Shown here: positions 53 through 40,720 of the stretch, piece by piece | How positions within the stretch are numbered: position 1 is the first letter of the stretch | Layout of the letters: the number at the start of each line of letters is the position of its first letter | DNA from: Desulfobacterales bacterium | GTDB lineage: Bacteria; Desulfobacterota; Desulfobacteria; Desulfobacterales; JAHEIW01 | Reading direction: 5' to 3' | NCBI GenBank assembly: GCA_030145015.1 | Contig: JAQYWI010000021.1 | Span: 1 to 44,263 of the forward strand | Length of the DNA: 44,263 bases | The notes under the pieces: generated by a model | What the model saw: only the letters and a program-made list of their open reading frames with translations | The model's database searches: none | Told to the model about the DNA's origin: nothing | Translations under genes and position numbers: made by a program

Positions 53-150
53 ATTAGTTTATCCGCAGATTACGCAGATTTCCGCAGATTATTATTTTCT
101 GTGTAATCTGCGGATAATATTTTTTTTGCCTAATCTGTGGATTAGTAGCC
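53..150. repeat. ATCTGCGGAT-type iterated inverted repeat, copy A
   Basis: The left arm (58-90) iterates CCGCAGATT at about 10-11 bp spacing. The right arm (99-147) carries the inverted form AATCTGCGGAT and a weaker AATCTGTGGAT. It is a short copy: the roughly 130-bp centre seen in the copies near 8,100 and 12,300 is missing. It lies 3' of the EF-G-like gene, which is read leftwards. No coding potential is evident. Confidence 0.8.
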
Positions 151-291
151 AGAGGGCAGAGAACAGAGTAGGGCAGCCCTCTGCGGCTGCCTTTTTACGG
201 CTGGCACAGAGGCCCCGCCTAAGGGTCGGGATGCAAGCACCGGCCCTACTCAGTCGAATCAAAGCCAGCAGCAAGCAGCCAGAAGCCAGAT
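151..291. other. Non-coding spacer with AGCCAG-type iterations
   Basis: This spacer follows the stop of the EF-G-like gene. From about 256 to 290 it iterates AGCCAG/AGCAAG words at about 7-10 bp spacing. The part between 165 and 225 is GC-rich and can form short hairpins (GGCAGCC and GCCTTTTTACGGC type). No gene is credible here. The iterated words resemble those of the spacer at 6,060-6,147. Confidence 0.5.
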
Positions 292-2364
292 TTATTGTTT
301 ACTCTTGTTCGCTTCTTCGATGATTTTATCTACGATCTGGGCAGGCACTTCATCATAATGGGAAAATTCGATGGTAAACATCCCACGGCCGCCCGTCATG
401 GATCGAAGATCCGAGGCGTAGCTTAAAAATTCCGCCATAGGCACCTGAGCATTAATCACCTGATTTTTTCCGGCGTTATCCATGCCCAGGACCCTGCCAC
501 GCCGACCATTGAGATCTCCCATGATATCTCCCATAAAGTCCTCCGGTGTCGTGACCGTCAGCTTCATGATCGGTTCCAGCAACGTTGGGCTGGCCTGTTC
601 AATCGCTTTTTTAAATGCCAACGAACCGGCGATTTTAAATGCCATCTCGGAAGAATCCACGGCGTGGTAAGATCCATCATCCAAGGTAACTTTGAAATCG
701 ACCGTGGGAACACCCGCCAATACACCTTTCTGAGAGGACTCAATAATACCCTTTTCGACTGCCGGAATGTATGTCTTGGGGATAACACCGCCTACGATTG
801 AATCGACAAACTCAAAACCTTTACCTCTGGGCAAAGGTTCAATTTGAATCCAGCAGTCACCGAACTGACCGTGACCCCCCGTCTGTTTCTTATGTTTGCC
901 CTGCACCCGGGCCTTGCCTTTAATGGTTTCCCGGTAAGGGACTTTGGGGGTATTTAACTGCGCTTCAACACCATATTTGCGCTTAAGTTTTTCAATAATG
1001 GTTTCAACATGTATCTGCCCTAAACCGGATAAAAGAATTTCTTTTGTTTCGGCCACACGCTCCAATTTAATGGATGGGTCCTCTTCAAGAAGTTTGGTCA
1101 GGGAGATAAAAATCTTATCTTCCTCGCCTTTGGATTTGGCTGTCAGAGCGAAAGAGATCAGGCTCGGAAGGGGATCAGAGCAATTGTATTGAATCCTGTT
1201 TGCGTCATCACAGAGCGTGTCAGCGGTTGCGGTTTCCTTTAGTTTAGCGACGGCGACGATGGATCCGGGACCGCCTTCGCTAGCCGGTTTTTGTTCTTTG
1301 CCGGCGATGGTTAATAACTGGGTAAATCTTTCCTTGGCTTCTTTATTGGGATTGTAAAAGGTGCCGTCACTCCCCAGCCGACCGGAAACTACCCGGAAGA
1401 TCGTCAATCGACCCGCATAGGGATCAGCCAGCGTTTTAACCACAAACCCGGAAAAAGGCGCATCTTCATCCGGAGCCCGTTCAATTTGATTGCCGCTGGA
1501 TGGATCCGAACCGGTTTTGGCCCCGCGGTCTTTTGGAGAAGGCATGCTGGTGACGATAAAATCCATGAGAAGATCGATGCCGATATTTTTCGTAGACGAT
1601 CCACAAACCACCGGTACAAAAATATGCGACAGGGTGCCTTTGCGCAATGCCGCATTTAATTCTTCTGCGGACAGGGTTTCACCTTCAAGGTACCTTTCAA
1701 TCAACTCATCGTCGGCTTCGGCAATATTCTCGATCAATGCCTCTCTTTCACTTTCCACCAGGTCCTGCATATCTGCAGGGATGTCTTGTTTTTTGGCCTT
1801 GCCGTTCGCGTCGTATATATAAGCCTGGTTGCGGATCAGATCTACAACCCCTTTAAATTCGTCTTCCGCACCGATGGGGAGCTGGAGAATAATCGGTTTA
1901 GGCGTAATACTGACTTTGGCATCTTCAAAAGTCCGATTAAAATCCGCCCGCTCACGGTCCAGCTTATTGATGAATATGACACCGGGTTGATCGAATTCTT
2001 TGGCAAACTCCAATGCCAGTTCGGTTTGAACTTTGATTCCGTCAACGGCATCGATGACCACCGCCACACCGTCAGCCGCCTGCATGCAGCTTTTGGTATC
2101 AGAGAAGAAATTCTGATCGCCGGGGGTGTCGATTAAATTTATGATATGGTCCTTCCAGCCGTATTGATGAAATCCGCTGCTGATACTTGAAGTGCGTTTG
2201 AGTTCTTCCGGCTCAAAATCCATGGCAGTGTTGCCTTCTGCGACGTTCCCCAAACGTTTAATCGTGCCGGAATTGTAAAGCAAAGCCTCCGCTAAAGACG
2301 TCTTGCCGGCGCCCCCATGGCCAATAAGTGCTATGTTTCTGATACGTTCCACCTTTTCACTCAT
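292..2364 (-). CDS. fusA2: EF-G-like translational GTPase (FusA2 type)
   Basis: This 690-residue protein has the full EF-G layout: an N-terminal GTPase domain, domain II, and domains III-V including the EF-G IV domain. The P-loop GHGGAGKT is at residues 15-22, DTPG at 79-82 and NKLD at 133-136. The P-loop has GG where canonical EF-G has an Asp-containing loop, which marks the second EF-G-like family found beside true EF-G in many bacteria. Family members bind GTP and are ribosome-associated, but their role is less certain than that of canonical FusA. The ATG start is preceded by GAGG at good spacing. It is probably transcribed alone, since 118 bases separate it from tlyA. No other fusA is visible in the window. 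Confidence 0.9.
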   Translation of the reverse strand: MSEKVERIRNIALIGHGGAGKTSLAEALLYNSGTIKRLGNVAEGNTAMDFEPEELKRTSSISSGFHQYGWKDHIINLIDTPGDQNFFSDTKSCMQAADGVAVVIDAVDGIKVQTELALEFAKEFDQPGVIFINKLDRERADFNRTFEDAKVSITPKPIILQLPIGAEDEFKGVVDLIRNQAYIYDANGKAKKQDIPADMQDLVESEREALIENIAEADDELIERYLEGETLSAEELNAALRKGTLSHIFVPVVCGSSTKNIGIDLLMDFIVTSMPSPKDRGAKTGSDPSSGNQIERAPDEDAPFSGFVVKTLADPYAGRLTIFRVVSGRLGSDGTFYNPNKEAKERFTQLLTIAGKEQKPASEGGPGSIVAVAKLKETATADTLCDDANRIQYNCSDPLPSLISFALTAKSKGEEDKIFISLTKLLEEDPSIKLERVAETKEILLSGLGQIHVETIIEKLKRKYGVEAQLNTPKVPYRETIKGKARVQGKHKKQTGGHGQFGDCWIQIEPLPRGKGFEFVDSIVGGVIPKTYIPAVEKGIIESSQKGVLAGVPTVDFKVTLDDGSYHAVDSSEMAFKIAGSLAFKKAIEQASPTLLEPIMKLTVTTPEDFMGDIMGDLNGRRGRVLGMDNAGKNQVINAQVPMAEFLSYASDLRSMTGGRGMFTIEFSHYDEVPAQIVDKIIEEANKSKQ

Positions 2365-2482
2365 TTAGATACCTCTTTCCGTTGGGTTTTATGGTGAAAA
2401 AATTTTTAAACGTAAATGAGTATCTGTTTCGTTAAAAAAAATCAAGTTAAAAAACGCCTGTTTGCTGATCAGGAAAGCGATT

Positions 2483-3217
2483 TTATTTTAAAAAGATGAA
2501 AAATTCACGATTGCCCTTGGGGCCTAGCAAGGGTGAAGGGCAAACCGACTGCGGTGTCAGCTTTAGGGTCCCGAAAAAGTCCGTTAAGTCCTTGAGGACC
2601 TGCTGATGCAGTTCCGGCTTCCTAACAACACCGCCTTTTCCAACCTGGCTTTTTCCGACTTCAAACTGAGGTTTAATCAGCGCGAGGATAGATGCATCGG
2701 GTTTTAAAAACTTAACGATGACCGGGACAACGATTTTAAGGGAAATAAAGGAAACATCAATGGTAACCAGATCCACCGGATCCGGTATCGTATCGGCTGC
2801 CATATGGCGGACATTGGTTCGCTCGATAACGATGACGCGCGGATCCTGGCGAAGCTTCCAGGCCAGCTGCCCGTACCCGACATCCACCGCATAGACGCGT
2901 TCGGCACCGTGCTGCAAAAGACAATCCGTAAATCCTCCGGTAGAGGCCCCCACATCGATGCAGATTGATTCGGTTACGTCCATCTGGAATTTTTGCAGTG
3001 CCGCTTCAAGTTTAAGGCCGCCTCTGCTGACATACGGAATATCAGTTCCCTTAAGTTCAACCGTATCATCGGGTGAAACATGAAAACCGGGCTTATCGAC
3101 CGGACGGTCATTGACCAGAACTTTTCCCGCCATGATCATGGCCTGGGACCGCTGGCGGCTTTGGGCCAGTCCTTTGGCGACAAGCATCAGATCAAGTCTG
3201 TGTTTTTTTGGGGACAC
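2483..3217 (-). CDS. tlyA: TlyA family rRNA 2'-O-methyltransferase
   Basis: An N-terminal S4 RNA-binding domain (RLDLMLVAKGLAQSR onwards) is followed by an FtsJ-like SAM methyltransferase domain with the SAM motif DVGASTGGFTD and a later LIKPQFEVG segment. TlyA enzymes methylate ribose 2'-OH of cytidines in 16S and 23S rRNA; some homologues were once called haemolysins. I place the start at the GTG at 3217, four bases after the dxs stop, because family members begin just before the RLD motif. A TTG at 3253 would add 12 residues and overlap dxs. The gene is the last of the xseA-xseB-ispA-dxs-tlyA run, so translational coupling to dxs is likely. Substrate position cannot be read from sequence. 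Confidence 0.88.
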   Translation of the reverse strand: MSPKKHRLDLMLVAKGLAQSRQRSQAMIMAGKVLVNDRPVDKPGFHVSPDDTVELKGTDIPYVSRGGLKLEAALQKFQMDVTESICIDVGASTGGFTDCLLQHGAERVYAVDVGYGQLAWKLRQDPRVIVIERTNVRHMAADTIPDPVDLVTIDVSFISLKIVVPVIVKFLKPDASILALIKPQFEVGKSQVGKGGVVRKPELHQQVLKDLTDFFGTLKLTPQSVCPSPLLGPKGNREFFIFLK

Positions 3218-3221
3218 CTGA

Positions 3222-5144: not shown

Positions 5145-5166
5145 TTTTTTTCTCCAAACGTTTTTC

Positions 5167-6057
5167 TTATTTCTTTCTTTCGACGATATATTTCGCAATT
5201 GCACGTAAGGGCTCAGCCTTCTGATCAAAGGATTCAAGCGCCTGCAGTGCGTTTTCTACCAACCGTCTCGCAAAATCTTTAGATTCTTTAAGGCCCAGCA
5301 GGGAAGGGTAGGTCGTTTTATTGCGAAGTTTATCGGTTCCGACGGCCTTGCCCATAATTTCAGGATCACCCTCGACATTTAAAATATCATCAGTTACCTG
5401 AAAAGCAAGGCCAATGTTCTGCGCATAGCTTTCAAGCATTGAAATTCGGGTTGAATTTAAACCACCCAGTACCGCCCCGCTGCTTAAGGACGCTTCGATT
5501 AAGGCACCGGTTTTTAAGCGATGCATGGATTTCAACTCAGCCAATGTCAGCGGTATGCCTTCCGAAGCCATATCCAGCATCTGGCCTTGAATCATACCGC
5601 AATAACCGGCTGCATACGAAATCGATCGAATGACACTCAACCACTTTGGGGCCTGTTCCACCTTGCGGAGTTCAATCGAAGAAAGCGTTTGAAACGCTAA
5701 TGTCAGCAAGGCGTCTCCGGCAAGAATGGCGGTGGCTTCGTCAAAAGCCATGTGACAGGTCGGCTTTCCTCTACGCAAGGCGTCATCGTCCATGGCTGGA
5801 AGGTCATCGTGAATCAAAGAGTAAGTATGGATCATTTCAAGAGCACAGGCAGCCGGCAGGGCATCTTCAGGATCACCGCCGGCCGTCTCCGTCGCTGCCA
5901 GGCATAATACCGGTCGAATGCGCTTGCCCCCCGCCATCAAAGAGTATGTCATGGCCTCAAGTATGCGGTCAGCCCTGTCAGCGGTTTTTAAAAGGGATTC
6001 CAGCGCGCGGTTAATCCGTTTATTATGCTCAGTGAAGTATGCATTCAAGTCAAACAT
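5167..6057 (-). CDS. ispA: Polyprenyl diphosphate synthase (farnesyl/geranyl type)
   Basis: Isoprenyl diphosphate synthase of the short-chain trans type. The first Asp-rich motif is DDLPAMDD and the second is [16 protein letters not shown] near the N-terminus binds substrate. It condenses IPP with allylic diphosphates to give GPP/FPP, fed by the MEP pathway begun by the adjacent dxs. I chose the ATG at 6057; an in-frame GTG at 6084 exists, but its nine extra codons come from an iterated CTGGCTCC-type intergenic repeat. It lies downstream of xseB and upstream of dxs, the classic xseB-ispA-dxs order. Exact product chain length is not readable. Confidence 0.93.
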
Positions 6058-6059
6058 AG

Positions 6060-6147
6060 ATTCTGGCCCCTGGCTCCTGGTCACTGGCTCCTTTCAGCTT
6101 GTCTCTGGCTCAGCCGGCAACCAGTAGCAAGTAGCCAGAAGCCAAGA
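6060..6147. repeat. CTGGCTCCTGG-type mirrored iterated repeat
   Basis: The left arm (about 6060-6090) iterates CTGG/CTGGCTCC. The right arm (about 6119-6147) iterates AGTAGC/AGCCAG. The reverse complement of the right arm matches the left at 17 of 23 aligned positions by hand. The element fills the xseB-ispA gap, starting five bases after the xseB stop. Confidence 0.65.
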
Positions 6148-6151
6148 AGGG

Positions 6152-7790: not shown

Positions 7791-8072
7791 ATTTCAATCT
7801 CAGTTAATTTTGGAGCATATTACTAATAGAGTGTTGGATTCGTTCTTTCGTTGCGTGTTACGGGTTACGAGTTGCGGGTTATGCTTCGATACTCCGATTC
7901 TCCATCACTGGTACTTCAAGACCGAATTTCCGTACTAAACGTCTGATAATGGATATTATGTAAACTTTCGTGTAGAACTTTGAAAATCCAACATTTTTGA
8001 CGGAAAAATTGCCTTTTGGGCTCCCCTTTTAGAATATTGATTTCAAATACTCGGAAACTGAGAATAACGAAT
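7791..8072. other. Non-coding gap upstream of xseA
   Basis: No gene is supported. A one-arm iteration of GTTACGGG/GTTGCGGG words runs from about 7848 to 7882 (period about 7-10 bp) with no clear mirrored partner. The remaining AT-rich sequence may contain the xseA operon promoter, but I could not pick out a convincing -35/-10 pair. Confidence 0.5.
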
Positions 8073-8306
8073 ATCCGCCGATTACGCCAAAAAATATTAT
8101 CCGCAGATTACACAGATTTCAAAATAAAATGAAAAGCTGTAAATTATGGTGTAATGTACCCGTTTGGCCTTTTACCTGCTCTTCAAGGTTATAAAGGTTG
8201 AACGGATCATTAAAATAAATAATAATCTGCGAAAATCTGCGTAATCTGCGGATATAAGTTTATCTTTTGAATAATTTGCTATATCTGCGGATTAAGCAGG
8301 TCTTCG
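8073..8306. repeat. ATCTGCGGAT-type element, full copy B
   Basis: The left arm (about 8076-8130) contains CCGCCGATTACGCC, then TTATCCGCAGATTACACAG. The right arm (about 8222-8303) contains AATCTGCG, AATCTGCGTAATCTGCGGAT and a further ATCTGCGGAT. The centre (about 8131-8218) shares ordered words with copy C at 12.3 kb: CTGTAA, GGTGTAATGTAC/GTCCGTGTACT, GTTTGGCC/GTTTTGGCC, CTCTTCA/GTTCTTCA, TATAAAGG and AATAAATAATAATC. It ends 17 bases from the stop of the small leftward gene at 8323. Confidence 0.85.
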
Positions 8307-9390: not shown

Positions 9391-9429
9391 CGAATATTCG
9401 CAGATCACCCAAAAAAATATTATCCGCAG
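9391..9429. repeat. ATCTGCGGAT-type element, partial copy D
   Basis: The 39 bases match the first part of copy B, including CGAATATTCGCAGATCACCC, AAAAAAATATTATCCGCAG. The match stops exactly at the glmM stop codon, so this copy is the outer left arm only and fills the whole gap between two convergent genes. Confidence 0.75.
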
Positions 9430-10782
9430 TTAACCAAGGGCAGCTTTAACGACGTTCGCAATCTGCCGACAATAGCGCTGAGTTTCATCTTTATCGGGCC
9501 CTTCCACCATCACCCGGCACAGCGGCTGCGTCCCGGAATAACGCACCAGTACCCTGCCCTTCTCGCCCAGGCGACCCTCTACTGAACGAATCGCAGCCAT
9601 AATCTCCGGAACACCTTCAATCTCCGGTTTTTTCTGAACATCGATATTCAGCAGAACCTGTGGAAATACAGCCATTATCCGGCTCAGTTCCGATAGCGGC
9701 TTGTTCTCTTCGCACAGGGTCTGAATCAGTCTTATCGCCGTTAACATCCCATCACCGGTAGTATGCTGATCCAGAAAAATCATGTGGCCGGAATCTTCAC
9801 CACCGATGATAGCACCGTTTGCGCGCATCTCTTCCAGCACGTAACGGTCGCCGACCTGGGTCATCAAATGCCGGATGCCCATGTCTTTGAGCGCCAATCG
9901 CAATCCTAAATTGCTCATAACGGTGCTGACAGCCAGATTATTCTTCAACAAACCTTTGCGCTTTAATGTCCTGGCACATATCGCCAGGATCCTGTCTCCG
10001 GTAATGACCCGGCCTTTTTCATCTATGGCGACCAATCGATCACCATCCCCATCAAAGGCCAGCCCGATATCAGCCTCGTTCGCGATGACGGTTTTGATTA
10101 ATTTTTGCGGATGCTCGGATCCGCAGTCCGCGTTAATATTCTGACCATCCGGATTTACACAGATCGCTTCGACCTGCGCTCCAAGATCGTGGAATAATTT
10201 GGGCGCGACTGAATAGGTTGCTCCGTTCGAACAATCCAAAACGATCTTCATAGTATTGAAGCGGGTGGTGTCAGACAGGGTGTTTTTTAAAAAAGCAAGG
10301 TAACGCTCAGATGCATCTTTAAGGCTTTCAATGTTTCCGGTGGCCCCCATAATTTCGTCGGCGGAGTTTGCTGTGTTTTCACCCAGCAGAAGATTTTCGA
10401 TCTCATCCTCTTTACTGTCAGCAAGCTTAAAACCATCGGCATCAAAGATCTTAATGCCGTTGTCGAAAAAAGGATTATGGGAGGCAGAAATCACAATTCC
10501 AGCGCTCGCATCGGTTGAAGCGGTTAAATACGCCACCGCCGGAGTCGGTAAAATACCGGCCAGATAAACTTCGCCGCCTGCGGAACAAATTCCGGCTGCG
10601 AGCGCATCTTCAATCATGTCACCCGACAGACGCGTGTCTTTTGCGATGATTATTTTGGCCCGGTTGTTGGCGCCCTTAAAAACCGATGCCACCGCCCGGC
10701 CGATTTCTTCGACGACCTCTGCTGTAAGCGGGTATTCATTTGCAGCACCACGGATACCGTCGGTGCCAAAAAGTCTGCCCAT
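9430..10782 (-). CDS. glmM: Phosphoglucosamine mutase
   Basis: A 450-residue alpha-D-phosphohexomutase. The N-terminal GRLFGTDGIRGAAN motif, the phosphoserine loop SASHNP, the metal-binding DGDGDR, the sugar-binding GEDSGH and the C-terminal phosphate-binding RYSGTQPLCRV are all intact. It converts glucosamine 6-phosphate to glucosamine 1-phosphate, feeding UDP-GlcNAc for peptidoglycan and lipopolysaccharide. The first residues MGRLFGTDGIRG are typical of GlmM rather than ManB/Pgm. The ATG start fits. Upstream are a repeat-filled gap and a hexapeptide-repeat protein, which may act in the same pathway. Confidence 0.95.
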   Translation of the reverse strand: MGRLFGTDGIRGAANEYPLTAEVVEEIGRAVASVFKGANNRAKIIIAKDTRLSGDMIEDALAAGICSAGGEVYLAGILPTPAVAYLTASTDASAGIVISASHNPFFDNGIKIFDADGFKLADSKEDEIENLLLGENTANSADEIMGATGNIESLKDASERYLAFLKNTLSDTTRFNTMKIVLDCSNGATYSVAPKLFHDLGAQVEAICVNPDGQNINADCGSEHPQKLIKTVIANEADIGLAFDGDGDRLVAIDEKGRVITGDRILAICARTLKRKGLLKNNLAVSTVMSNLGLRLALKDMGIRHLMTQVGDRYVLEEMRANGAIIGGEDSGHMIFLDQHTTGDGMLTAIRLIQTLCEENKPLSELSRIMAVFPQVLLNIDVQKKPEIEGVPEIMAAIRSVEGRLGEKGRVLVRYSGTQPLCRVMVEGPDKDETQRYCRQIANVVKAALG

Positions 10783-10798
10783 AAGTAGTCCTCTGTTA

Positions 10799-10891
10799 TA
10801 TTGGTTAAACTCGTTGAATTAGTTAAATTGGTTAAGCTGTGTATCCCGCCAAACCAATGTAACCCATAAAACCAATCGAACCAATCAAACC
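10799..10891. repeat. TTGGTTAA-type mirrored iterated repeat
   Basis: The left arm (10801-10839) iterates TTGGTTAA/TTAGTTAAA words. The right arm (10850-10891) iterates the inverted words AACCAAT/AACCCAT. Period is about 8-13 bp. The element fills the gap between glmM and the beta-helix gene, ending seven bases from that gene's stop codon. Confidence 0.75.
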
Positions 10892-12205: not shown

Positions 12206-12430
12206 ATCCACAGATTACCCGAATAAAAATTATCCGCAGATTACGCAGATTACACAGATTTATAAAAATTAAAAACTGTAAGTGTCCGTGTACTGCTCAC
12301 GTTTTGGCCGTCTAGCTGTTCTTCATCTCTATAAAGGAGGAATGGCATTATACAATAAATAATAATCCACGGAAATCTGCGAAATCTGCGGATATCAATC
12401 AATCTTTTGAATAATCCACCAAATCTGGGT
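12206..12430. repeat. ATCTGCGGAT-type element, full copy C
   Basis: The left arm (about 12206-12262) contains ACAGATTACCCG and ATCCGCAGATTACGCAGATT. The right arm (about 12358-12428) contains AATAATCCACGGAAATCTGC, GAAATCTGCGGATAT and AATAATCCACC. The centre shares ordered words with copy B at 8.1 kb. It occupies most of the gap between the dehydrogenase and the beta-helix gene, both leftward. Confidence 0.85.
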
Positions 12431-12440
12431 ACAGTTTTAT

Positions 12441-12493
12441 AGTGGTTGTCAAAAAAACGTTCCGATATTCAAACGTTTTTTTCTACAACCACT
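12441..12493. terminator. 53-bp inverted repeat, possible bidirectional terminator
   Basis: The arms are AGTGGTTGT plus AAAAAAACGTT on the left and AACGTTTTTTT plus ACAACCACT on the right, with one and two unpaired bases between sub-arms and a loop of about 10 bases. The A/T runs lie inside the stem, not after a GC stem, so termination is only one option; it could also be an operator or a small mobile remnant. It is 85 bases beyond the dehydrogenase stop. Confidence 0.5.
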
Positions 12494-12577
12494 TATGCCG
12501 CAATTCCATAATTCGGAACATTATTATGAAAAGCGGTATAAAATAGTTGTCAACGCCGAATTCGTAAATAAACCGGA

Positions 12578-14266: not shown

Positions 14267-14392
14267 AAATCATCTCCGTTCTGATCTGGTTGTTGGGATT
14301 TAAAAAATGACGTATAGAATTTATCTCATAAAATGCATTTAACGCCCGATGGTAAAGTTTTAAACCGATAAAAAATGATTATTACAACAAGT

Positions 14393-14667
14393 GACTAAAG
14401 TTGGAAGTGATCTAAAGTGCCTAAAGTTGAGGAATCCTGCCCGTCGAGAGCCTCCCTTCGAGGGCCTCAGGGTCGAACGACAGGGTCGAACGATCCATTT
14501 TATTAAAAAAGATAGAGCGCCACGCGGCGCAAGCGCCTGCGCTGCGCGAGCGACACCATAACTTTAGGCATTTTAGCTCATTTTAGGCATTTTAGGCACT
14601 TCTAACTTTAGAGCACCTTTGAAACTTTTTTTCTCTGTCTTCGAAGATGAACTGCTAATTTTGAAAT
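14393..14667. repeat. CTAAAGTG-type element, copy 1
   Basis: One end iterates CTAAAGTG words (GACTAAAGTTGG, TCTAAAGTGCCTAAAGTTGA). The other iterates the inverse (ACTTTAGGCATTTTAGCTC, ATTTTAGGCATTTTAGGCAC, TAACTTTAGAGC). The middle has 14-bp tandem units around CTTCGAGAGCCTCC (one full plus degenerate copies) and 13-bp units GGGTCGAACGACA, then CGACACCATAACTTTAGG. Two further copies lie at 30.0 and 40.5 kb. This copy alone carries an extra GC-rich palindromic stretch (about 14515-14550). Confidence 0.9.
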
Positions 14668-14856: not shown

Positions 14857-15176
14857 AAGTGGTTTCAAAACCCCAGATCAGGTTCAAGGGCCCCGCTGAA
14901 GCGGGATTACATGTCTAACCTAACCAGATTAATGCATGCATCAAGGCGTCCCGCTAATTTAAAGTCGTGTGTCCGAGCGTACACCTCGTGGCTGCCCCGG
15001 TTAAATTCACCGGGATGCAAGCAGAAGCCACTCCCACTAATTTTTTCGCTTTCACAATGTTTATCCGTTAATCTCTAATCTGCACAGTGGGAGCGGCATC
15101 TTGCCGCGATAAATTAGCATTTCAATTCGCGGGACAACACGACCATTGAGCCTCAGATGGGGTTTTGAAACCACTT
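14857..15176. mobile_element. 320-bp MITE-like element with 19-bp inverted ends
   Basis: AAGTGGTTTCAAAACCCCA at 14857-14875 is perfectly inverted at 15158-15176. Flanking bases stay partly similar (AGATCAGG against the inverse of CCTCAGAT). Inside is a REP-like hairpin around 15086-15112 (GGGAGCGGC, ATCTT, GCCGCGA) and a second inverted pair (GCCACTCCCACT near 15024 with AGTGGGAGCGGC near 15087). No transposase frame is credible inside. The element may be a non-autonomous transposable element; no target duplication was verified by eye. It ends 32 bases before the lipoprotein start. Confidence 0.55.
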
Positions 15177-20571: not shown

Positions 20572-20792
20572 AATTGAGATATTCCCCTTCTAAAAAATTC
20601 AATTTAGAGTAACAGTTTTAATCCGCAATCCAAATTCCAAAATCAAAAACACCGGCTCTGTCATTCGAAATTATCAGGTGCCGTAGAATTATCAAGCATT
20701 AAAGTAGGCCTTAAATAGTGCCCAACAAGGATGGTTTAACACGTAATCTTTTATATCACAAAAGAAAGCGTCTGGAAGCCCGTTTTGGCTGC
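20572..20792. other. Non-coding gap with one iterated arm
   Basis: ATCCGCAATCCAAATTCCAAAATC-type iterations lie near 20618-20645, a single arm without a clear mirrored partner. An open frame from 20747 to 20917 has no start codon and is not called. Otherwise nothing is assignable. Confidence 0.4.
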
Positions 20793-29077: not shown

Positions 29078-29213
29078 ATGGAGAATCCGTTAATTATAGG
29101 CGTGATGGGAGTTTGAACGCTATCGGAAAAAGGAAATGTTGTTTTGGACAGAAACTCCCGAAGAAGTGCACGCATGCTGGGTTGCCGGGAAGCAACCAAG
29201 AGTTCGTAGCGCT
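29078..29213 (+). pseudogene. Possible gene remnant, LOG-like start
   Basis: ATG 29078 follows AGGAGG but closes after 12 codons (ENPLIIGVMGV), a beginning reminiscent of the LOG/lysine-decarboxylase-like family. A different frame then stays open to about 29213 and reads ERYRKKEMLFWTETPEEV and so on. It may be a gene cut down by an internal deletion and frameshift, with only its ends left. The evidence is a few residues, so this is tentative. Confidence 0.25.
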
Positions 29214-29264
29214 TAGCTGTTCTTTTTTACTATGCGCTATCAGCTATCGGCTGTGAGCTAATAA
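29207..29264. repeat. TAGCTGATAGC-type iterated repeat at ispD 3' end
   Basis: TAGCGCTTAGCTGTTC (about 29206-29222) faces GCGCTATCAGCTATCGGCTG and TGAGCTAATA (about 29233-29264), inverted and iterated. The right part lies inside ispD and encodes its last residues. Confidence 0.6.
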
Positions 29265-30002: not shown

Positions 30003-30203
30003 AAAAGTGCCTAAAGTGAACTAAAGCGAGCTAAAGTGCCTAAAGTTATGGTGTCGCTGCGCTCCATCTTTTAATAAAAATGGTCGTTCGACCCTGTCGT
30101 TAGACCCTGAGGCTCTCGAAGGGAGGCTCTCGAAGGGAGGCTCTCGACGGGCAGAATTCCTCAACTTTAGTCACTTTAGATCACTTGTAACTTTAGCTCA
30201 CTT
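30003..30203. repeat. CTAAAGTG-type element, copy 2 (inverted)
   Basis: Inverted against copies at 14.4 and 40.5 kb. It begins with GTGCCTAAAGTGAACTAAAG and GAGCTAAAGTGCCTAAAG, has GTTATGGTGTCGCTGCGC and three tandem GGCTCTCGAAGGGA-like units, and ends with AACTTTAGTCACTTTAGATC, ACTTGTAACTTTAGCTCAC. It overlaps the stop codon (TGA, 30198-30200) of the HPr-domain gene, so that gene's 3' end lies at the repeat edge. Confidence 0.9.
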
Positions 30204-31508
30204 CAAGTAGCTTAATTCCTTCGGCAACGGTACCCCTTTGCCCATGCTGTCTTCGCCGTAATTCACACCGGCAAGGATTTGGATATCTTTCAGGGTCCGC
30301 GCATCGCCTTCAAAGATGACCTCGGAGAGATTTTCTTTTTGAATCTTTCCACCGGCCCACTGAAGGTCCAGAACACTGCTGGCGTCAAATCGATCAGCGC
30401 CGACACACAGTTCAACCTGCCCTCCATAGTTCTGGACAATCTTCGCTACCAGAAGGCACGGTCGGCTGTGAAATCCTAATTTTACCGGTACGCCCACCTT
30501 AATGGTTGAGCGCTCGATGTTTTCATTGAGTATTTGTTGGGCTGATTCAATACCGATTGTTAAGAAATGGCATGCATTAAAAAGGCCGTAATTGATCGTT
30601 TGATCCAGAAGAGTTTTGGGATTAACTAAATTGGATAAGCTGACCTGAACTTTTTTATAGGTATTTTTATATCCAGCCTCGTGCAGGTGGCGCTCATAAA
30701 AATGAAGCAGGCGTCCGACCATTTGCAGAAGATGAAAAACAACCGAAAAATAACCGCGCAGCCGTTTTAGCTCACGATTACCAAACCTGAATCCCCCGTG
30801 GATAACATAGGTATCAAATGAGGATTGAAGGCTGTGCACCAGCATCTCAAAGCGTCTGATTTCAACCTCGTTAACCTTGCTGGGAACAATGCTTAAAATT
30901 TCTGCGTGTGTGTAAGGTTCGTAAAATTTGAGCTGATCAAAACTCTTGGCGATATTTAAGAAATCACTGGAGATTTTGACAATATTTTTTTTCTGTTGGT
31001 CCTTATCTTGGTCATCAATGTCATAATCGAGCATTTCACCGGTAACAACACTGGGAAAATCAGCAGCCACAAATTGAGTATCCGGAAGACGAATTTTAAG
31101 TCGTCGGGCCTCATTCAAGATAACCGGTGCCATTTCCATCAAGGTATGCGTTAAAAAATCAAGTGTGGCTTCACCTTCCTTTGGAAAATCGCCGATATCA
31201 ACCAGATCGTAAAAAACAAGACGATTGGATATATGTTTTTGGAAATTCGCCGCCAGGCTCAGATGTCGAACCGAAGCCGCAAGTTCCCGGTAATAATACC
31301 AATTTTTGTTGTTTTTTGCGCCGTGAAAATCGAGAAAATCCTCGAGCAGCATAGAGGTCGACACAATCGTTGAGTAAAGCTTTTGAGTAAAAACGACCTC
31401 GGGCATTTCAACATTTGAAATATAGGTACAGCATTTTAAATAATCCTGGGAAAATGTGCGTACTTTTTCAGCAAATGAAACTCCGGTTGTTGTTTCTGTC
31501 TTCTTCAT
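30198..31508 (-). CDS. Large protein with C-terminal HPr-like domain
   Basis: 436 residues. Residues about 335-415 resemble HPr: the phosphorylated-His segment GFHSRP (H347) and a later DASSVLDLQW with Ser near the position of HPr Ser46, then a helical end. The first 330 residues are helix-rich and unknown to me, with no enzyme motif. HPr normally relays phosphate from enzyme I to sugar permeases or controls kinases; here it may be a regulatory module fused to a sensor. Start ATG 31508. It follows rnpB and precedes ispD on the same strand, with a repeat element on either side. Confidence 0.8.
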   Translation of the reverse strand: MKKTETTTGVSFAEKVRTFSQDYLKCCTYISNVEMPEVVFTQKLYSTIVSTSMLLEDFLDFHGAKNNKNWYYYRELAASVRHLSLAANFQKHISNRLVFYDLVDIGDFPKEGEATLDFLTHTLMEMAPVILNEARRLKIRLPDTQFVAADFPSVVTGEMLDYDIDDQDKDQQKKNIVKISSDFLNIAKSFDQLKFYEPYTHAEILSIVPSKVNEVEIRRFEMLVHSLQSSFDTYVIHGGFRFGNRELKRLRGYFSVVFHLLQMVGRLLHFYERHLHEAGYKNTYKKVQVSLSNLVNPKTLLDQTINYGLFNACHFLTIGIESAQQILNENIERSTIKVGVPVKLGFHSRPCLLVAKIVQNYGGQVELCVGADRFDASSVLDLQWAGGKIQKENLSEVIFEGDARTLKDIQILAGVNYGEDSMGKGVPLPKELSYLK

Positions 31509-31529
31509 CGATTGTCGCTATTCCTCACC

Positions 31530-31613
31530 TGGTTCAAGGTTCTGGGTTCCGAGGTTCTGAAAAAAGCGGTTAGGACAACCTTGAACGCTGAACCTTGAAC
31601 CTTTGAACCCCCA
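31530..31613. repeat. GGTTCAAGG-type mirrored iterated repeat
   Basis: The left arm (31530-31559) iterates GGTTCAAGGTTCTGGGTTCC. The right arm (31578-31613) iterates the inverse, CCTTGAACGCTGAACCTTG and AACCTTTGAACCC. It starts about four bases past the 3' end of rnpB and may act there as a 3' stem. Confidence 0.75.
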
Positions 31614-33642: not shown

Positions 33643-33836
33643 TAGTTAGTGGCATTGCCCCAATTGGAATGGTGGAATGTTGGAATATTGGATAAATGGG
33701 TCTTGAGAAACTGTAATCTAAGAAAATTCATTTTGACGATAAAGCATAAAATAGATTATATCCTTTGAGAACGCATTATTCCATCGTTCCACTATAGCGC
33801 TAAAGCTTCACTTCGTGCCCATTATTCCATTATTAA
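33643..33836. repeat. TTGGAATGG-type mirrored iterated element
   Basis: The left arm (about 33661-33696) iterates TTGGAATGGTGGAATG and TTGGAATATTGG. The right arm (about 33773-33836) carries ATTATTCCATCGTTCCAC and ATTATTCCATTATT, the inverse words. The left end, TTAGTGGCATTGCCCCA, recurs at 39,496-39,513 as a partial copy. No gene is visible inside. Confidence 0.75.
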
Positions 33837-33930: not shown

Positions 33931-34078
33931 CAAAGAAACATTGACCGCATTCGGTTTTCATCTTCGCGGTTTCGTTTAAACCGCGGGCATTTTTCTTTTA
34001 GCATTCGATAAACGATTTTCTCTGTTCGCTAAAGAATTAAGGTTTTTTCTGTACGGGGCACGTCTTACGGTTTATGCA
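33931..34078. other. 3' trailer of tRNA, non-coding
   Basis: No gene here. It contains a CGGTTTTC...GGTTTCG region and CCGCGGG-like palindromes (around 33968-33988: TCGCGGTTTCG, AACCGCGGG). It probably forms the 3' trailer between tRNA and terminator. Confidence 0.4.
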
Positions 34079-34151: not shown

Positions 34152-34214
34152 ACATTGTGTAAAGCACAATTAGCTTCTGCTAAAATCTTTGTCAATGGTT
34201 CATCTTATCGCGTT

Positions 34215-36389: not shown

Positions 36390-36465
36390 AAAAACTCGCC
36401 TCCCGGAAAAATCAAAAATTCAATCCCACCTCACCGTCCGATTCGATCATCTGGCATAAAAACTT

Positions 36466-36607
36466 AAATACTTGAGGGGTCGGGGAGTTTTTCCCGTCAT
36501 GCCCGCGCAGGCGGGCATCCAGCTTTTTCAGCAGAACATTTCTGGATTCCCGCCTGCGCGGGAACGACAAGCTTTGAATAAAAAACTCCCCGACTGCTCA
36601 AATACTT
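36466..36607. repeat. 142-bp nested inverted-repeat element (REP/MITE-like)
   Basis: Outer arms: TACTTGAGGGGTCGGGGAG then TTTTT (left) and AAAAACTCCCCGACTGCTCA then AATA (right), about 27 bases with few mismatches. Inner arms: GTCATGCCCGCGCAGGCGGG and GGATTCCCGCCTGCGCGGGA, each itself a hairpin, facing around a 19-base centre. This is the widespread CCCGCGCAGGCGGG repeat type. It lies between dnaG and rpoD. Confidence 0.85.
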
Positions 36608-36677
36608 AATGATTTAATAAATACTATATGCTAAATGGGCGTAGTCAAGCCCGAGCCGACAGTTATTTTTTAAGGTG

Positions 36678-38486
36678 TCATGCCAGCTTTTGTTTTTGAC
36701 TTTGCACCGCCAGCTTTTGCTTTTCTTTTAATAGCTTATCCAACGTTTCCTGATCGTTTTTTTCCTCGGCGGCTTTAATCTGTTCTATAATCTTGTTATC
36801 GCTATGTTTTTCCCCTGCCGTAACGAATTGCTTAATTAATTTCAAACATCCATTTTCATCCCAGGATTCTTCAATCATTGCCAGGGTGGTAATCAGATTC
36901 TGCTGCACCGGATCCTCAATAGAAGTTAGCAATTCTGAAATTTGCTCTTCCGAAGACAATTGATTTTCCAAAACAGTCTTGCCAATGGATTTGAGAATAT
37001 CATTCTCAATATAATCAATAACATTGTACATTTTGATTGCCGGCAATATAGCCGGAAATTGTAACATCATGGCAATGATTTGTTTTTCCAGCCGGCTGCC
37101 TTTATCTGCAGGGGCATTACGCGCATACGATTCCTTTTTTGATTTAACGGATCTGTGCTCTCGAATCTTTTCCAAGACGATGTTTTCGTCAATGCCGATG
37201 CGCTCGGCGAGCTGCTTGATATACAAAGACCGAGCCACTTTATCATTTATTGTAGCCAGAGGTCGCTGCAGTTCTGCAATAACACGAATTTTGCCTTCGG
37301 TTGTAAGTCCGTGCTTAACTATGGCCCGATCTAATAAAAATGTAATAATACTAGGCGCTTGCGAGGCGGCCTGTTGAAATCTTTCAGGCCCGTTTTCCAT
37401 CAGGAATGAATCCGGATCGTGTTCATTCGGTAAAACCAGGATATGGGTGTCGGCTTTCTCTTCCCGAAACACATCACCGCGGCTGAAATCCACATGCTCC
37501 TTCCAAAATATGTCAACGCATCGCAATGCAGATCGGATCCCGGCCTCATCCGAATCATAGACCAGCACCATCCGGGGAGCATATCGGGTCAACAGGCGAA
37601 CATGTTCCTCGGTCAGAGCGGTCCCAAGAGTCGCAACGGAATTTTCAATGCCGTGTTGGTGAAGGGAAAGCAGGTCAAAGTACCCTTCGACGATAAAGAT
37701 CGTGTTGGTTGTTCGGCATTTATCTTTGGCAGTGTAAAGTCCGTACAAAGACCGGCTTTTATTATAGACAGGCGTTTCCGGCGAATTGAGATACTTCGGC
37801 AAAGAATCATCCAGCACCCGCCCGCCGAACCCGATTACCTGCTGGTTGACATCAAGAATCGGGAATATGATACGATCCCTGAAACGATCGTAATAGCCGC
37901 GTTTATCTTTTTTGGGCAGAATCAGTCCTGACCTCTCAACCAAAGCAAGAGGCGCCCCTTTTTTTGAAATAAAATTTAAAAAATGGTCCCACCCTTTGGG
38001 TGCATATCCGAGATGAAACCTGTCAACGGTCTCGGGGGAAAATCCCCGTTTTTTTAGATAGGATATCGCCTGGATACCGGCTGATTTGCTGTGCAATGCC
38101 CGGCAAAAAAAATCCATCGCCTGCCGGTTGATATTCAGCAGACTTTCCCTTTCACTGATTCTTTTCTTTTGTTCACGTGTCAGGCTTTGTGTAGGAATAT
38201 TAACGCCATACCGCCTGGCCAGTGTCCGAGCTGCCTCCGGAAATGCAATTCCGTCATTTTTCATGAGGAAGCTGAATATGTTCCCACCAACACCACATCC
38301 GAAGCAGTGATAGATCTGTTTTTCCGGGCTCACCGAAAAGGATGGTGTTTTTTCAGAATGAAACGGGCATAGACCCAAAAAATTTTTCCCTGCCTTTTTC
38401 AGATGGACAACTTCCGAAACAATATCCACAATATCAGCCGCATTCTTAATTTCTAAAATTTTATCTTCAGGGATAAAAATAGTCAA
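36678..38486 (-). CDS. dnaG: DNA primase
   Basis: 602 residues. CHC2 zinc finger with C40, H43, C61 and C64 (CPFHSEKTPSF... YHCFGC), the RNA polymerase domain with the EGYFDLLSLHQHGI Toprim motif and DSDEAG, and a C-terminal helicase-binding domain ending in a Gln/Lys-rich tail. It makes RNA primers on the lagging strand. Start is TTG 38486 after GGAGG; no ATG is near. It is followed by rpoD on the same strand (288-base gap with a repeat). Confidence 0.96.
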   Translation of the reverse strand: MTIFIPEDKILEIKNAADIVDIVSEVVHLKKAGKNFLGLCPFHSEKTPSFSVSPEKQIYHCFGCGVGGNIFSFLMKNDGIAFPEAARTLARRYGVNIPTQSLTREQKKRISERESLLNINRQAMDFFCRALHSKSAGIQAISYLKKRGFSPETVDRFHLGYAPKGWDHFLNFISKKGAPLALVERSGLILPKKDKRGYYDRFRDRIIFPILDVNQQVIGFGGRVLDDSLPKYLNSPETPVYNKSRSLYGLYTAKDKCRTTNTIFIVEGYFDLLSLHQHGIENSVATLGTALTEEHVRLLTRYAPRMVLVYDSDEAGIRSALRCVDIFWKEHVDFSRGDVFREEKADTHILVLPNEHDPDSFLMENGPERFQQAASQAPSIITFLLDRAIVKHGLTTEGKIRVIAELQRPLATINDKVARSLYIKQLAERIGIDENIVLEKIREHRSVKSKKESYARNAPADKGSRLEKQIIAMMLQFPAILPAIKMYNVIDYIENDILKSIGKTVLENQLSSEEQISELLTSIEDPVQQNLITTLAMIEESWDENGCLKLIKQFVTAGEKHSDNKIIEQIKAAEEKNDQETLDKLLKEKQKLAVQSQKQKLA

Positions 38487-38616
38487 AAACAGCGACCTCC
38501 ATAATTTATGGAACAGGAAAGATATGCACGAACGGAAGGATCTTAAATGGAATGAAGCTTTTCAAATTTTGCAATTCGCCCGATTCGCCAATTTGAAATT
38601 GCTCTTAAAAAATTTA

Positions 38617-38638
38617 CCATAAGTCTATATACTTATGG
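38617..38638. promoter_or_regulatory. 8-6-8 palindrome CCATAAGT/ACTTATGG
   Basis: Perfect 8-base arms around CTATAT, 130 bases upstream of dnaG and 83 bases after hisA's stop. The design matches the 16807 site, without sharing the sequence. A second loose inverted pair (TTCAAATT/AATTTGAA) lies at about 38556-38598. Possible operator, low certainty. Confidence 0.4.
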
Positions 38639-38720
38639 CCCCCACCACAAGAAATTGTTAAACGGAAAAAATAATCTGTTATTGAAGGTTTGTCAAGAAG
38701 ATTTTGCTTAAAACACCGAT

Positions 38721-39467
38721 TTAATCTTTTAAGGAGAATGTGTTTTGGCCTGTCAAATCCAAAGCCTCCCTCAGATCCAATTTTCCACTATATAAGGCTT
38801 TACCGATAATAACGCCGGACACCCCAGCCGTTTCTAAGGGTAAGAGGTTTTTTATGTCTTCAATTGATGAAACTCCGCCGGAAGCCACCACCGGGATCGA
38901 TACCGCCTCTGCCAGTTCCAGGGTGGCATCCAGGTTGGGACCCGTCTGCATTCCATCCCGATGGATATCGGTAAAATTAATGGCGGCAACGCCGCAATCT
39001 TCAAACTCTTTAGCCAGTTCCACAGCCTCGATCCGCGTGGTTTGAGTCCAACCATCAATCGCCACCTTTCCGTTGCGCGCATCGATACCCACCACGATCT
39101 GTCCGGGATAGGTTTTACAAACCTTTTTAACAAACTCCGGCTTTTTTATGGCACTGGTGCCGATAATAACGCGTTGGACACCCATCTCGAGGTACATGTG
39201 TACGCTTTCTTCGGTGCGAATCCCACCTCCCAGTTGGATCGGCACCTTCAGCGCCTGTAAAATTTTTCGGATCGACCCCGTGTTTTGAGGGGTTTTTGCA
39301 AACGCTCCATCCAGGTCAATTACGTGAACAAGCTGTGCACCAAGCCGTGTCCATTTTGAGGCCATGGCTCGGGGATCATCGGAATACACCGTTTCATCAT
39401 GCATACGCCCCTGAAGGAGCCGAACACATTTTCCATTTTTTATATCGACAGCCGGTATGATAAGCAT
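38721..39467 (-). CDS. hisA: Phosphoribosylformimino-AICAR-P isomerase
   Basis: 248 residues. The HisA barrel has PAVDIKNGKCVRL with catalytic D8, LGGGIR, VVGIDARNG with the second catalytic Asp, TDIHRDGM and VVASGGVSS, and the phosphate-binding GVIIGKALYSG. It isomerises ProFAR to PRFAR in histidine synthesis. hisB is directly upstream; 63 bases separate them, largely filled by a partial TTGGAATGG repeat. ATG start, no strong SD seen. No hisF or hisH adjacent. Confidence 0.95.
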   Translation of the reverse strand: MLIIPAVDIKNGKCVRLLQGRMHDETVYSDDPRAMASKWTRLGAQLVHVIDLDGAFAKTPQNTGSIRKILQALKVPIQLGGGIRTEESVHMYLEMGVQRVIIGTSAIKKPEFVKKVCKTYPGQIVVGIDARNGKVAIDGWTQTTRIEAVELAKEFEDCGVAAINFTDIHRDGMQTGPNLDATLELAEAVSIPVVASGGVSSIEDIKNLLPLETAGVSGVIIGKALYSGKLDLREALDLTGQNTFSLKD

Positions 39468-39492
39468 CGCGTAAATAAATTTTATAAATCAA

Positions 39493-39530
39493 TAAGTTAG
39501 TGACTTCGCCCCAGTTGGAATGGTGCAAAG
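39493..39530. repeat. Partial TTGGAATGG element
   Basis: GTTAGTGACTTCGCCCCAGT followed by TGGAATGGTG matches the left end of the element at 33,648-33,675. It ends at the hisB stop codon, filling the hisB-hisA gap. Confidence 0.75.
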
Positions 39531-40118
39531 CTACAACGCGCCTTTTGAGGAACGAACATCTTTGATGCGCTCATCGGTTGAAACAGCCTGATCCAGTGCT
39601 CTGCCAAGTGCCTTGAACATCGATTCCAGTATATGATGCTCATTTTCACCGTATGAAACATTAATATGGAGGTTTAGTCCGCCGCGACTCACAAAGGCCC
39701 TGAAAAACTCCTTTGCCAGCGAAACGCTGAACCCCATGCCTGAGGCTGTAGATGACGGGATATGGTAAACCAAAAAGGGGCGCTTAGACAGATCAACCGT
39801 AACCGCAGTCAGGGCGTCATCCATGGGGGTCGCAGCATGGCCAAACCGTCTTATACCTTTACGACTTCCAAGGGCTTGGTCCAAAACATCCCCTAAAACA
39901 AGACCCACATCTTCAACGGTATGGTGATAATCAACCTCCAGATCACCTTTGGCCTTTACGCCCAGATCAAAAAAACCGTGGACGGCGAATAAGGTGAGCA
40001 TATGATCAAAAAAAGGTATACCGGTAGATATTTCAGTCTTGCCGCTGCCGTTTAAATTCAGGCTAACCCGAATTGCAGTCTCTTTTGTCTTGCGCTCTAC
40101 CTCCGTAACCTTTTCCAT
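39531..40118 (-). CDS. hisB: Imidazoleglycerol-phosphate dehydratase
   Basis: 195 residues. Contains EISTGIPFFDHML, the metal-binding DYHHTVEDVG, MDDALTAVTVDLS and the second metal motif GENEHHILE. It removes water from IGP to give imidazole acetol phosphate. I start at ATG 40118 after AGAGG; an upstream in-frame start at 40178 would add a basic 20-residue extension that looks non-family. It is monofunctional (no phosphatase domain). hisA follows on the same strand. Confidence 0.95.
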   Translation of the reverse strand: MEKVTEVERKTKETAIRVSLNLNGSGKTEISTGIPFFDHMLTLFAVHGFFDLGVKAKGDLEVDYHHTVEDVGLVLGDVLDQALGSRKGIRRFGHAATPMDDALTAVTVDLSKRPFLVYHIPSSTASGMGFSVSLAKEFFRAFVSRGGLNLHINVSYGENEHHILESMFKALGRALDQAVSTDERIKDVRSSKGAL

Positions 40119-40297
40119 AATTTTTAACCTCTTGTTTTTGGTGATTACGCCGGCAAACCTACCCACGCCGATACGCACAAATCTTGCACTTTCCGGGGTG
40201 GTTTATCAACCGGTCCGGTATGTTCTCATTTGCTATGACCTAAGGCATCATAATTAAATTGTTTAAGAAATGCAAATGTTTATATCAATAATGAAAA

Positions 40298-40323
40298 GGG
40301 TGGCTCACCGAAATGAACCACCC
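40298..40323. promoter_or_regulatory. Hairpin GGGTGG/CCACCC before a mini-ORF
   Basis: GGGTGG (40298-40303) and CCACCC (40318-40323) form a short stem with a 14-base loop, right before an AAAGGAGG ribosome site. Its role is unknown; it may be a leader structure. Confidence 0.35.
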
Positions 40324-40339
40324 GTGAAAGGAGGTCAGA

Positions 40340-40372
40340 ATGAAGCACGATGACGTACTTACTCTGAGGTAA
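40340..40372 (+). CDS. Ten-codon mini-ORF with strong ribosome site
   Basis: AAAGGAGG at about 40327-40334, then ATG and the peptide MKHDDVLTLR. The strong ribosome site is out of keeping with such a short frame. It could be a leader peptide or the cut start of a lost gene. No downstream frame within 1.2 kb is clearly coupled. Confidence 0.3.
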   Translation: MKHDDVLTLR

Positions 40373-40442
40373 CTTAGACGAATCCAAGCCACCATAGTAA
40401 AGAACCCTATATTCGCTAAAAGTTACAGTTTATTACAAAAAA

Positions 40443-40720
40443 AATGAGCTAAAATTAAAAATGATCTAAAATGCCTAAAGTTGAGGAATTCAACCCTTCG
40501 AGAGCCTCCCTTCGAGAGCCTCCCTTCGAGAGCCTCAGGGTCTAACGACAGGGTCTAACGACTGGGTCGATCGATCATATTTATAAAAAAAGATGAAGCG
40601 CAGCGACACCATAACTTTAGGCATTTTAGCTCATTTTAGGCATTTTAGGCACTTCTAACTTTAGCGCACCTTTGGAACTTTTTTTCTCTGGTCTTCGAAG
40701 ATAAACTGCTATTTTTGAGA
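40443..40720. repeat. CTAAAGTG-type element, copy 3
   Basis: Same orientation as copy 1 at 14.4 kb. ATCTAAAATGCCTAAAGTTG, then three tandem CTTCGAGAGCCTCC-like units and three GGGTCTAACGACA-like units, CGACACCATAACTTTAGG and the TTTTAGGCA iterations, and the same trailing text near TCTTCGAAGATAAACTGCTA. It extends to about 40720. Confidence 0.9.

Follow-up and report, generated by a model that had tools for sequence, protein, structure and literature searches.

What are the short fold-back sequences that stand between the genes of a Desulfobacterales contig? The contig is JAQYWI010000021.1 of assembly GCA_030145015.1, and its positions 1 to 44,263, the whole stretch of 44,263 nucleotides that was analysed, are called the window here. 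Some twelve fold-backs occur in it, each with arms in which a 7-10 bp word is repeated in degenerate form. The initial annotation described them as one class built on one plan from unrelated words, adjoining gene stops and left unexplained by the known repetitive extragenic palindromic (REP) sequences and bacterial interspersed mosaic elements (BIMEs); it suggested transcript-end structures or products of template switching. The arms, at the places described, the class and the common plan were confirmed. A self-match detector with a threshold of 11 finds 11 intergenic arms and one more within a called open reading frame (ORF), and none in dinucleotide-shuffled intergenic DNA. As to their nature, the fold-backs are probably minimal mobile elements of two classes, or derivatives of such elements, and the copies in the window are all ORF-less. 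Loci and genomes are referred to below by L and G numbers, and elements of the window by E numbers.

A small gene lies between the arms

In L254, a long copy of one family, a 123-codon gene is found between the arms, and its product belongs to PF05635 (23S_rRNA_IVP, 'four helix bundle'; E 1.3e-16). In some short copies the middle consists of fragments of an L254-type gene, from its start or its end. PF05635 genes, henceforth IVP genes, were therefore tested generally. The loci were 30 best-per-genome matches, 40 chosen by hand from the listed matches in arm-rich genomes, and L254; the resulting 75 rows (55 passing) correspond to 68 genes when five rows for duplicate places, the row L293 on the wrong strand and the second piece of a split gene are removed. 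Other ORFs of 90-200 codons (n=497) served as controls.

A gene-spanning inverted repeat (score at least 14) surrounds 49 of the 68 IVP genes and 7 of the 497 control ORFs. Iterated arms occur on at least one side of 60 IVP genes and on both sides of 37; the respective numbers for the control ORFs are 73 and 7. Taken alone, the best-per-genome set shows the gene-spanning repeat in 21 of 30 cases. It is also seen in samples from other phyla, namely in 19 of 28 IVP genes from genomes of the phylum to which G043, a Melioribacteraceae metagenome-assembled genome (MAG), belongs and in 25 of 30 from the phylum of G042, an Omnitrophota MAG, as compared to 1 of 14 and 1 of 13 other ORFs in these loci. 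Of 36 records with a match, three cyanobacterial plasmid copies were inspected and all three have arms, with scores of 16.6 (Nostoc MS1), 45.6 (Oscillatoria PCC 7112) and 27.6 (Anabaena 90). The IVP gene on plasmid pANA02 of Anabaena sp. 90 (L460), with its long heptamer arms, is situated between cas6 and cas4 of a CRISPR-Cas run.

The number of IVP genes per genome follows the arm load. The median is 8 in 16 arm-rich genomes, chosen beforehand, versus 1.5 in 24 arm-poor ones (p 9e-7), and the Spearman correlation over 43 genomes is 0.70, both values being uncorrected for kinship and MAG incompleteness. No PF05635 gene was found in any of 14 control genomes. The IVP profile matches the PDB entries 2rld and 2gsc, with five chains each.

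Arms with the word ATCTGCG matched no IVP flank. At loci picked by this word, L451 and L455 have a PDDEXK_3 (PF13366) gene enclosed by the arms or next to them, and L448 has part of such a gene. A search for PF13366 only, over 40 genomes, gave 30 loci with 29 testable genes (L479 entering twice), and a gene-spanning inverted repeat was found in 24 of the 29. Where arm periods are visible they are mostly 9, 10 and 8, and the consensus of the proteins retains the pattern GLLE.vYe..D..ELK. We note that at L448 (G012:C23) and at L449 and L450 (G010) clusters of ATCTGCG arms lie among runs of short genes over 4-13 kb, which resembles a cassette-like region.

Arm word and protein

Among close proteins, the word of the arms is linked to the protein between them. 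Over 65 IVP domains, 21 pairs from different loci have an arm similarity of at least 22, and in 15 of them the protein identity is 0.67-0.91, while the 2032 pairs with an arm similarity below 16 have a median identity of 0.26. The Mantel correlation is low (r 0.08, p 0.005), as is expected if the link is confined to near relatives. For the 29 domains of the PDDEXK_3 class it amounts to 0.41 (p 0.001), and the 26 pairs with an arm similarity of at least 18 have identities of 0.39-0.93. The same IVP word can be found in different genomes: GGTGTCAGG in G001, G003 and G004, CTAAAATG in G001 and G009, and AAATAAC in G003, G004 and G012. The outer flanks of 13 of the 15 same-word pairs tested showed no homology. 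The ratio of nonsynonymous to synonymous substitutions (dN/dS) is 0.02-0.22 in the 5 of 12 IVP pairs where dS could be estimated, so that in these the IVP gene is under purifying selection. As each protein lineage mostly retains a word of its own, a single plan comes to bear many words.

The elements of the window

Sixteen stretches of the window were scored for arm similarity against reversed and shuffled arms, and 13 of them match arms of IVP genes (class A) or PDDEXK_3 genes (class B). The elements are listed without strand, and the scores of the null arms are given in brackets. Apart from rnpB and the tRNA, the names of window genes are presumed ones, in part taken from the initial annotation.

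Class A words are found in the following elements. E2b (263..290) is a lone AGCCAG arm (CTGGCT word) that scores 18.2 to L365 (reversed 10.8, shuffled 13.8), and the arms of the CTGGCTCC fold-back E2 (6063..6143) score 16.8 and 19.6 to the same locus (12.0-13.4), which is an IVP gene of the G043 phylum sample. E3 (7850..7880), a lone GGGTTACG arm, scores 24.4 to L300 (reversed 15.2, shuffled 11.8). E5 (10795..10891) is a TTGGTTAA fold-back of period 9, its left arm scoring 24.6 to L311 (reversed 17.4, shuffled 13.8) and its right arm 18.8 to L315 (reversed 16.8, shuffled 13.8). The CTAAAGTG element E7 (14390..14632) has arms scoring 21.4 to L323 and 37.4 to L357 (11.0-17.2). Its copy in inverted orientation, E9 (30004..30206), scores 35.0 and 17.4 to L323 (10.8-13.6) and also occupies the same site in L001. 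E14 (40441..40670), a CTAAAATG element of the same family, scores 22.8 and 37.4 to L357 (12.8-16.0). E8 (29211..29262), a TAGCTAT fold-back overlapping the 3' end of ispD, scores 17.8 to L310 with a modest margin (reversed 13.8, shuffled 13.6). E10 (31528..31612) is a GGTTCAAGG fold-back at the 3' end of rnpB, with scores of 17.8 to L353 and 25.2 to L327 (10.4-14.0). In the TTGGAATGG element E11 (33657..33834) only the left arm scores, reaching 17.6 to L330 by a small margin (reversed 12.8, shuffled 14.8), and the right arm, at 11.6, is no higher than the null.

Class B words are found in three ATCTGCG elements: E1 (59..117), a fold-back with arms 59-78 and 98-117, E4 (8091..8261), with a spacer of 113 nt, and E6 (12231..12394), a member of the E4 family. 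E1 scores 27.8 to L451 (reversed 15.4, shuffled 14.0), the arms of E4 20.0 and 27.8 to L451 (10.0-14.0), and those of E6 25.8 to L451 and 22.2 to L455 (10.0-13.2), but as L448-L457 were selected by the ATCTGCG word, all that these scores demonstrate is that arms of this kind can occur around a PDDEXK_3 gene. Three stretches match neither class: E13 (39508..39530), a stub of a TTGGAATGG element with a full copy at the same site in L001 (10.4 vs 12.8, the stretch being too short for scoring), 20612-20655 (17.0 vs 21.2 reversed) and 9395-9430 (11.2 vs 11.8). Neither an IVP nor a PDDEXK_3 gene is present in the window, hence all of its copies are ORF-less.

The closest locus found to the window is L001 (MAG CSMAG_771), whose DnaG is 87% identical. 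An inverted-repeat element of 107 bp at 12436-12542 is 98% identical to L001 11882-11988, where it lies in the rpoD-dnaG gap, and has several matches in L002. Another inverted repeat, of 34 bp and 85% complementary, is formed by 14857-14890 and 15143-15176, separated by 252 nt. Judged by eye only, the TTGGAATG elements (E11, L001 hisA-hisB, L020 20176 and G003 L129 19716) seem to have a middle, GATAAA..TAAAA..TATCCTTT, that is conserved across genera, as though they were a stable ORF-less family.

Dispersed families and changing occupants of fixed sites

The words are not the unrelated singletons they were first taken for, as E7, E9 and E14 form one family and E4 and E6 another. The median length of 67 paired elements is 100, and 37 of the 67 can be aligned with another element along 80% or more of their length. 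In only 16 of the 67 is the strictly best match of an arm its own partner (there are 6 ties), thus most arms belong to dispersed families. The initial annotation would have given up its view if the arms were members of one alignable repeat family; what was found is half of this, as the alignable families are numerous and are connected with two families of proteins.

In the GAATTTCG family the odd unit AAGCACG adjoins the array in 17 of 26 loci, in agreement with the prediction of descent. The signature of one family is present in 11 of 43 genomes; none has the reversed pattern. Of 35 matches in G012, 33 have an identical signature of 21 bases, which looks like a recent burst. An alignment of 28 copies shows two conserved arms and a variable middle, and a left arm is found within 420 bp in 26 of the 28. 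The number of units is unequal between relatives (L007 vs L016), therefore some slippage is likely.

The comparison of relatives at these sites, which the initial annotation had suggested, revealed both presence/absence and different words at orthologous gaps. Elements present in one genome are absent from another that is about 90% alike. By reading, the rnpB 3' end carries GGTTCAAGG in the window, GGTGTCAGG in L001 and three direct-repeat words in L004, and in the hisA-hisB gap the window and L001 both have TTGGAATGG, L002 has GGTGTTTGG and L003 several words. At the E11 site, the TTGGAATGG array was not seen in L001 or L002. A full IVP element of about 0.5 kb stands between two genes in L344 (G005). 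Three relatives lack it at this position and carry a GTCGAGTAG fold-back (G012), GTCGAGTAGG words (G006), and ACAGGAT and GTTCACAG words (G008) instead. This gap is a repeated landing place. An empty site was also sought for L303 in three relatives, whose flanks could not be matched.

How the elements might move

We propose that a full element consists of one small gene of about 105-130 codons between two inverted arms of a degenerate 7-10 bp word. Class A, with periods 7 and 8 and some of 9-10, would encode the 23S_rRNA_IVP/'four helix bundle' protein, and class B, with periods 8-10 (e.g. ATCTGCG), the PDDEXK_3/GxxExxY nuclease-fold protein. We infer that the small protein recognises its own arm word, in DNA or in folded RNA, and promotes the movement of the arm-bounded unit; ORF-less copies would be moved in trans, by protein from a gene at another place. 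Such movement is easy to imagine for class B with its nuclease fold. The elements would accumulate in intergenic DNA, and at certain sites time and again, as insertions at other places are lost.

Several observations weigh against this explanation. No full-length copy was found in the window, three of its 16 stretches remain unmatched, the margins of E8 and E11 are narrow, and the ATCTGCG scores are limited in meaning as said above. Nineteen of the 68 IVP genes have no arm pair. In the other-phylum loci iterated DNA lies near neighbouring ORFs as well (8 of 14 and 12 of 13), so there only the gene-spanning repeat separates the IVP genes. The profile behind the 497 control ORFs, the genome counts and the other-phylum neighbours held the wrong-strand seed L293, which was left out in the recounts of the IVP flank tests and of the word-protein pairs. 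The relation between IVP genes and arm load still includes kinship and MAG incompleteness. In class B, iteration was detected beside only 12 of the 29 genes, because the arms are short, and among the PF13366-only loci the ATCTGCG word was noted in one, L475, which is the same place as L455. The word-protein link has exceptions: 6 of the 21 similar-arm IVP pairs have unlike proteins (identity 0.20-0.46), and the 1760 pairs below 0.35 identity include 5 with an arm similarity of at least 22. In the estimation of dN/dS, dS was saturated in 7 of the 12 IVP pairs and as high as 3.3 in one of the other five. The IVP protein has no evident catalytic site, its near-invariant residues being Q, S, E and E. 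Finally, target-site duplications in 16 copies gave p 0.14 or 0.04 depending on the flank cut, with one 9-bp case (L233).

The lack of an evident catalytic site in IVP would also fit a different and possible, if rather doubtful, explanation, according to which the elements are transposons of the miniature inverted-repeat transposable element (MITE) type, moved by an unrelated transposase, and the IVP and PDDEXK_3 genes are cargo, e.g. for addiction or regulation. The elements do have MITE traits, i.e. terminal inverted repeats, no transposase gene and dispersed copies, and MITEs with apparent 7-bp duplications occur in these genomes. One of them, L060 11674-12185 as compared to L059, has an apparent TTTATTG duplication and ends like GATGAACTCGTAAAAAGTC, and contains an iterated-word fold-back. 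A further insertion was seen in the L015 counterpart of L058 1770-2249, where an element with the ends CTACAACG...CGTTGTAGG lies in a GTCGAGTG array with an apparent ACTACTC duplication. What speaks against cargo is that the full copies that were read have one small gene, of two families, and that the word tends to follow the protein. The parent-like copies carry IVP or PDDEXK_3 and not a known transposase. Autonomous copies were also sought between far-apart arm pairs, and five genes from there, tested against Pfam, are ordinary housekeeping genes, with no transposase among them.

The Y1 transposases (RAYT/TIRYT), considered as movers, have other ends. Of 30 Y1 loci fetched from four relatives 26 were testable, and none has iterated arms on both sides (three have them on one side), for which reason these enzymes were rejected as movers; the ends proper to the Y1 loci are short and non-iterated (19 loci). 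The earlier view that REP/BIME families are an inadequate explanation is upheld by the same counts. By reading, the iterated elements do not fit a single hairpin with a GTAG/CGTC tag, and the sole CGTC-type REP pair of the window (36496-36568, between rpoD and dnaG) falls outside the iterated class and reads as one of the REP pairs described in PMC3733652; used as a negative control, this pair matches neither protein class. In L096, L103 and L110, a Y1 transposase gene has an iterated heptamer/octamer stretch on one side only. The GCGGCAAGATGCCGCTCCCAC repeat at 15083-15115 of the window recurs in G003 (L094), where it flanks a 153-aa Y1 transposase gene in a REPtron-like manner.

Alternatively, the arms might fold in the transcript, RNase III would excise the element, and it would spread via RNA and a reverse transcriptase, with IVP playing a part like that of Avd, the accessory protein of diversity-generating retroelements. 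In PMC10053308 PF05635 is likened to Avd, and according to PMC4990558 this gene is also found in the intervening sequences (IVS) of 23S rRNA, together with terminal inverted repeats. We nevertheless regard this route as unlikely. A gene with the RVT_1 domain was not found in 5 of the 16 arm-rich genomes, among them G012 with its 33 identical signatures, although MAGs may be incomplete, and class B elements have no IVP; dependence on a reverse transcriptase is thus not supported.

Distribution of the arms in genomes

The genome-wide distribution was studied in the related chromosome G003 (CP070694.1), in a sample of 60 stretches of 20 kb, i.e. 1.2 of 5.3 Mb. Bounded intergenic DNA, amounting to 150.9 kb, contained 164 arms, and the 1,037 kb of coding DNA contained 33; shuffled intergenic DNA had none. 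In the first 40 stretches, the periods between 4 and 16 were distributed as follows: 62 arms had period 7, 18 period 8, 8 period 14 and 3 period 10, all others being 0 or 1, in a total of 95. The arm load is patchy among genomes. In L111, L114, L132, L152, L156 and L158 of G003 a hairpin like CCTAATTGAGCGAAAAACGCTCAATTAGG precedes some GTTAATNGTTATTTGTTA arms at an approximately fixed distance.

The arms show no specificity for the 3' ends of genes. Four elements of the window (E2, E5, E10 and E13) are at most 11 bp from a 3' end and two (E8 and E9) overlap with one, as the initial annotation had it, but E7 lies between two 5' ends, and E4, E1, E6 and E11 are 67, 141, 182 and 245 bp away. As most window genes share one direction, every gap there is also a 5' side. 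The search with stop distances, likewise foreseen by the initial annotation and made here on the G003 sample, found only a slight shift towards the upstream stop in tandem gaps (73 vs 49, p 0.037). Divergent gaps are depleted of arms (24 observed vs 40.6 expected, p 0.002), and convergent gaps are not enriched, neither in G003 (18 vs 24.5) nor in L001-L058 (0 vs 5.1). The idea of a 3'-end feature is therefore weak. Transcript-end structures kept by selection, with words that drift freely, would account for the divergent depletion and for the occupation of the same sites in relatives, yet an intrinsic terminator class would be expected after stops and enriched in convergent gaps, and the number of terminator-like sites, counted in two stretches of the window, is close to the shuffle level (24 vs 19.8, sd 4.3, and 21 vs 17.3, sd 4.3). 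We consider such structures very improbable as the source of the elements. Least credible of all is that each element arose in place through slippage and fold-back template switching. This origin agrees with arrays in which one word passes into another while the frame is kept (L141) and with the variation in unit number, but not with the rarity of own partners as best matches, the odd unit recurring in the GAATTTCG family, the gene between the arms or the fact that the arms are largely common to many sites by descent.

Significance and comparison with known systems

It is about an even question whether a wider statement holds, namely that this is a very widespread, overlooked class of minimal mobile elements whose protein reads the arm word, both changing together like lock and key, and that the heptamer repeats of cyanobacteria, Geobacter and others as well as the 23S rRNA IVS are faces of it. 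With the two proposed classes, scattered reports of unlike heptamer and octamer repeats would have one explanation. Two common small families, PF05635 (named after the IVS) and PF13366 (named after a nuclease fold), would gain a genomic setting, and a role of the IVS reading frame in mobility, proposed long ago, would become directly testable. Many proteins with their words would also be at hand for a study of the way in which a small protein might read a word of 7-10 letters.

The REP/REPIN/BIME sequences with their RAYT/TIRYT proteins, as described in PMC3733652, are similar in being dispersed, non-autonomous, inverted pairs of short modules with a variable spacer. They differ from the present elements, which have iterated arms, no GTAG/CGTC tag seen on them and no Y1 gene with arms on both sides in the 26 loci.

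In the 23S rRNA IVS, which have been proposed to be mobile (Burgin 1990; Ralph and McClelland 1993, cited in PMC4990558), an S23/IVP gene lies between terminal inverted repeats. The likeness is that the full copies of the relatives have a PF05635 ORF surrounded by terminal inverted repeats. The elements described here, in contrast, lie between genes, have iterated arms, occur in many ORF-less copies and use many words per genome. Insertion inside 23S rRNA was not seen, as the window copies are between genes, one of them at the rnpB 3' end, and there is no rRNA in the window. In open-licence articles, searched in part with broad terms, we found no description of intergenic IVP or PDDEXK_3 genes between iterated arms, which is weak evidence of absence.

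The paired tandem octa- and heptanucleotide sites of Geobacter metallireducens, grouped in classes 1-3 and interpreted as putative IHF/HU regulator sites (PMC2700814), are similar in their opposite-strand tandem 7-9-mers, in the variable distance in classes 1 and 2 and in having several unlike words per genome. What sets the present elements apart is the link to a small gene, of which none was found in the accessible sections of PMC2700814. No work joining the 23S rRNA IVS with Geobacter-type paired heptamer sites was found among open-licence articles.

The foldback (FB) transposons of Drosophila have inverted arms of iterated short units. The iterated inverted arms are alike, but FB transposons are eukaryotic and have other sequences, and no relation is claimed.

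Cyanobacteria have short tandemly repeated repetitive (STRR) sequences, i.e. tandem heptamer repeats in intergenic DNA. The TAACTGA repeats of cyanobacteria are nearly all direct and mostly upstream of start codons, according to PMC4679880, while the arms studied here are inverted. Common to both are degenerate tandem heptamers between genes, period 7 being the leading one among the G003 arms as well, and the three IVP genes on cyanobacterial plasmids have arms of just this kind.

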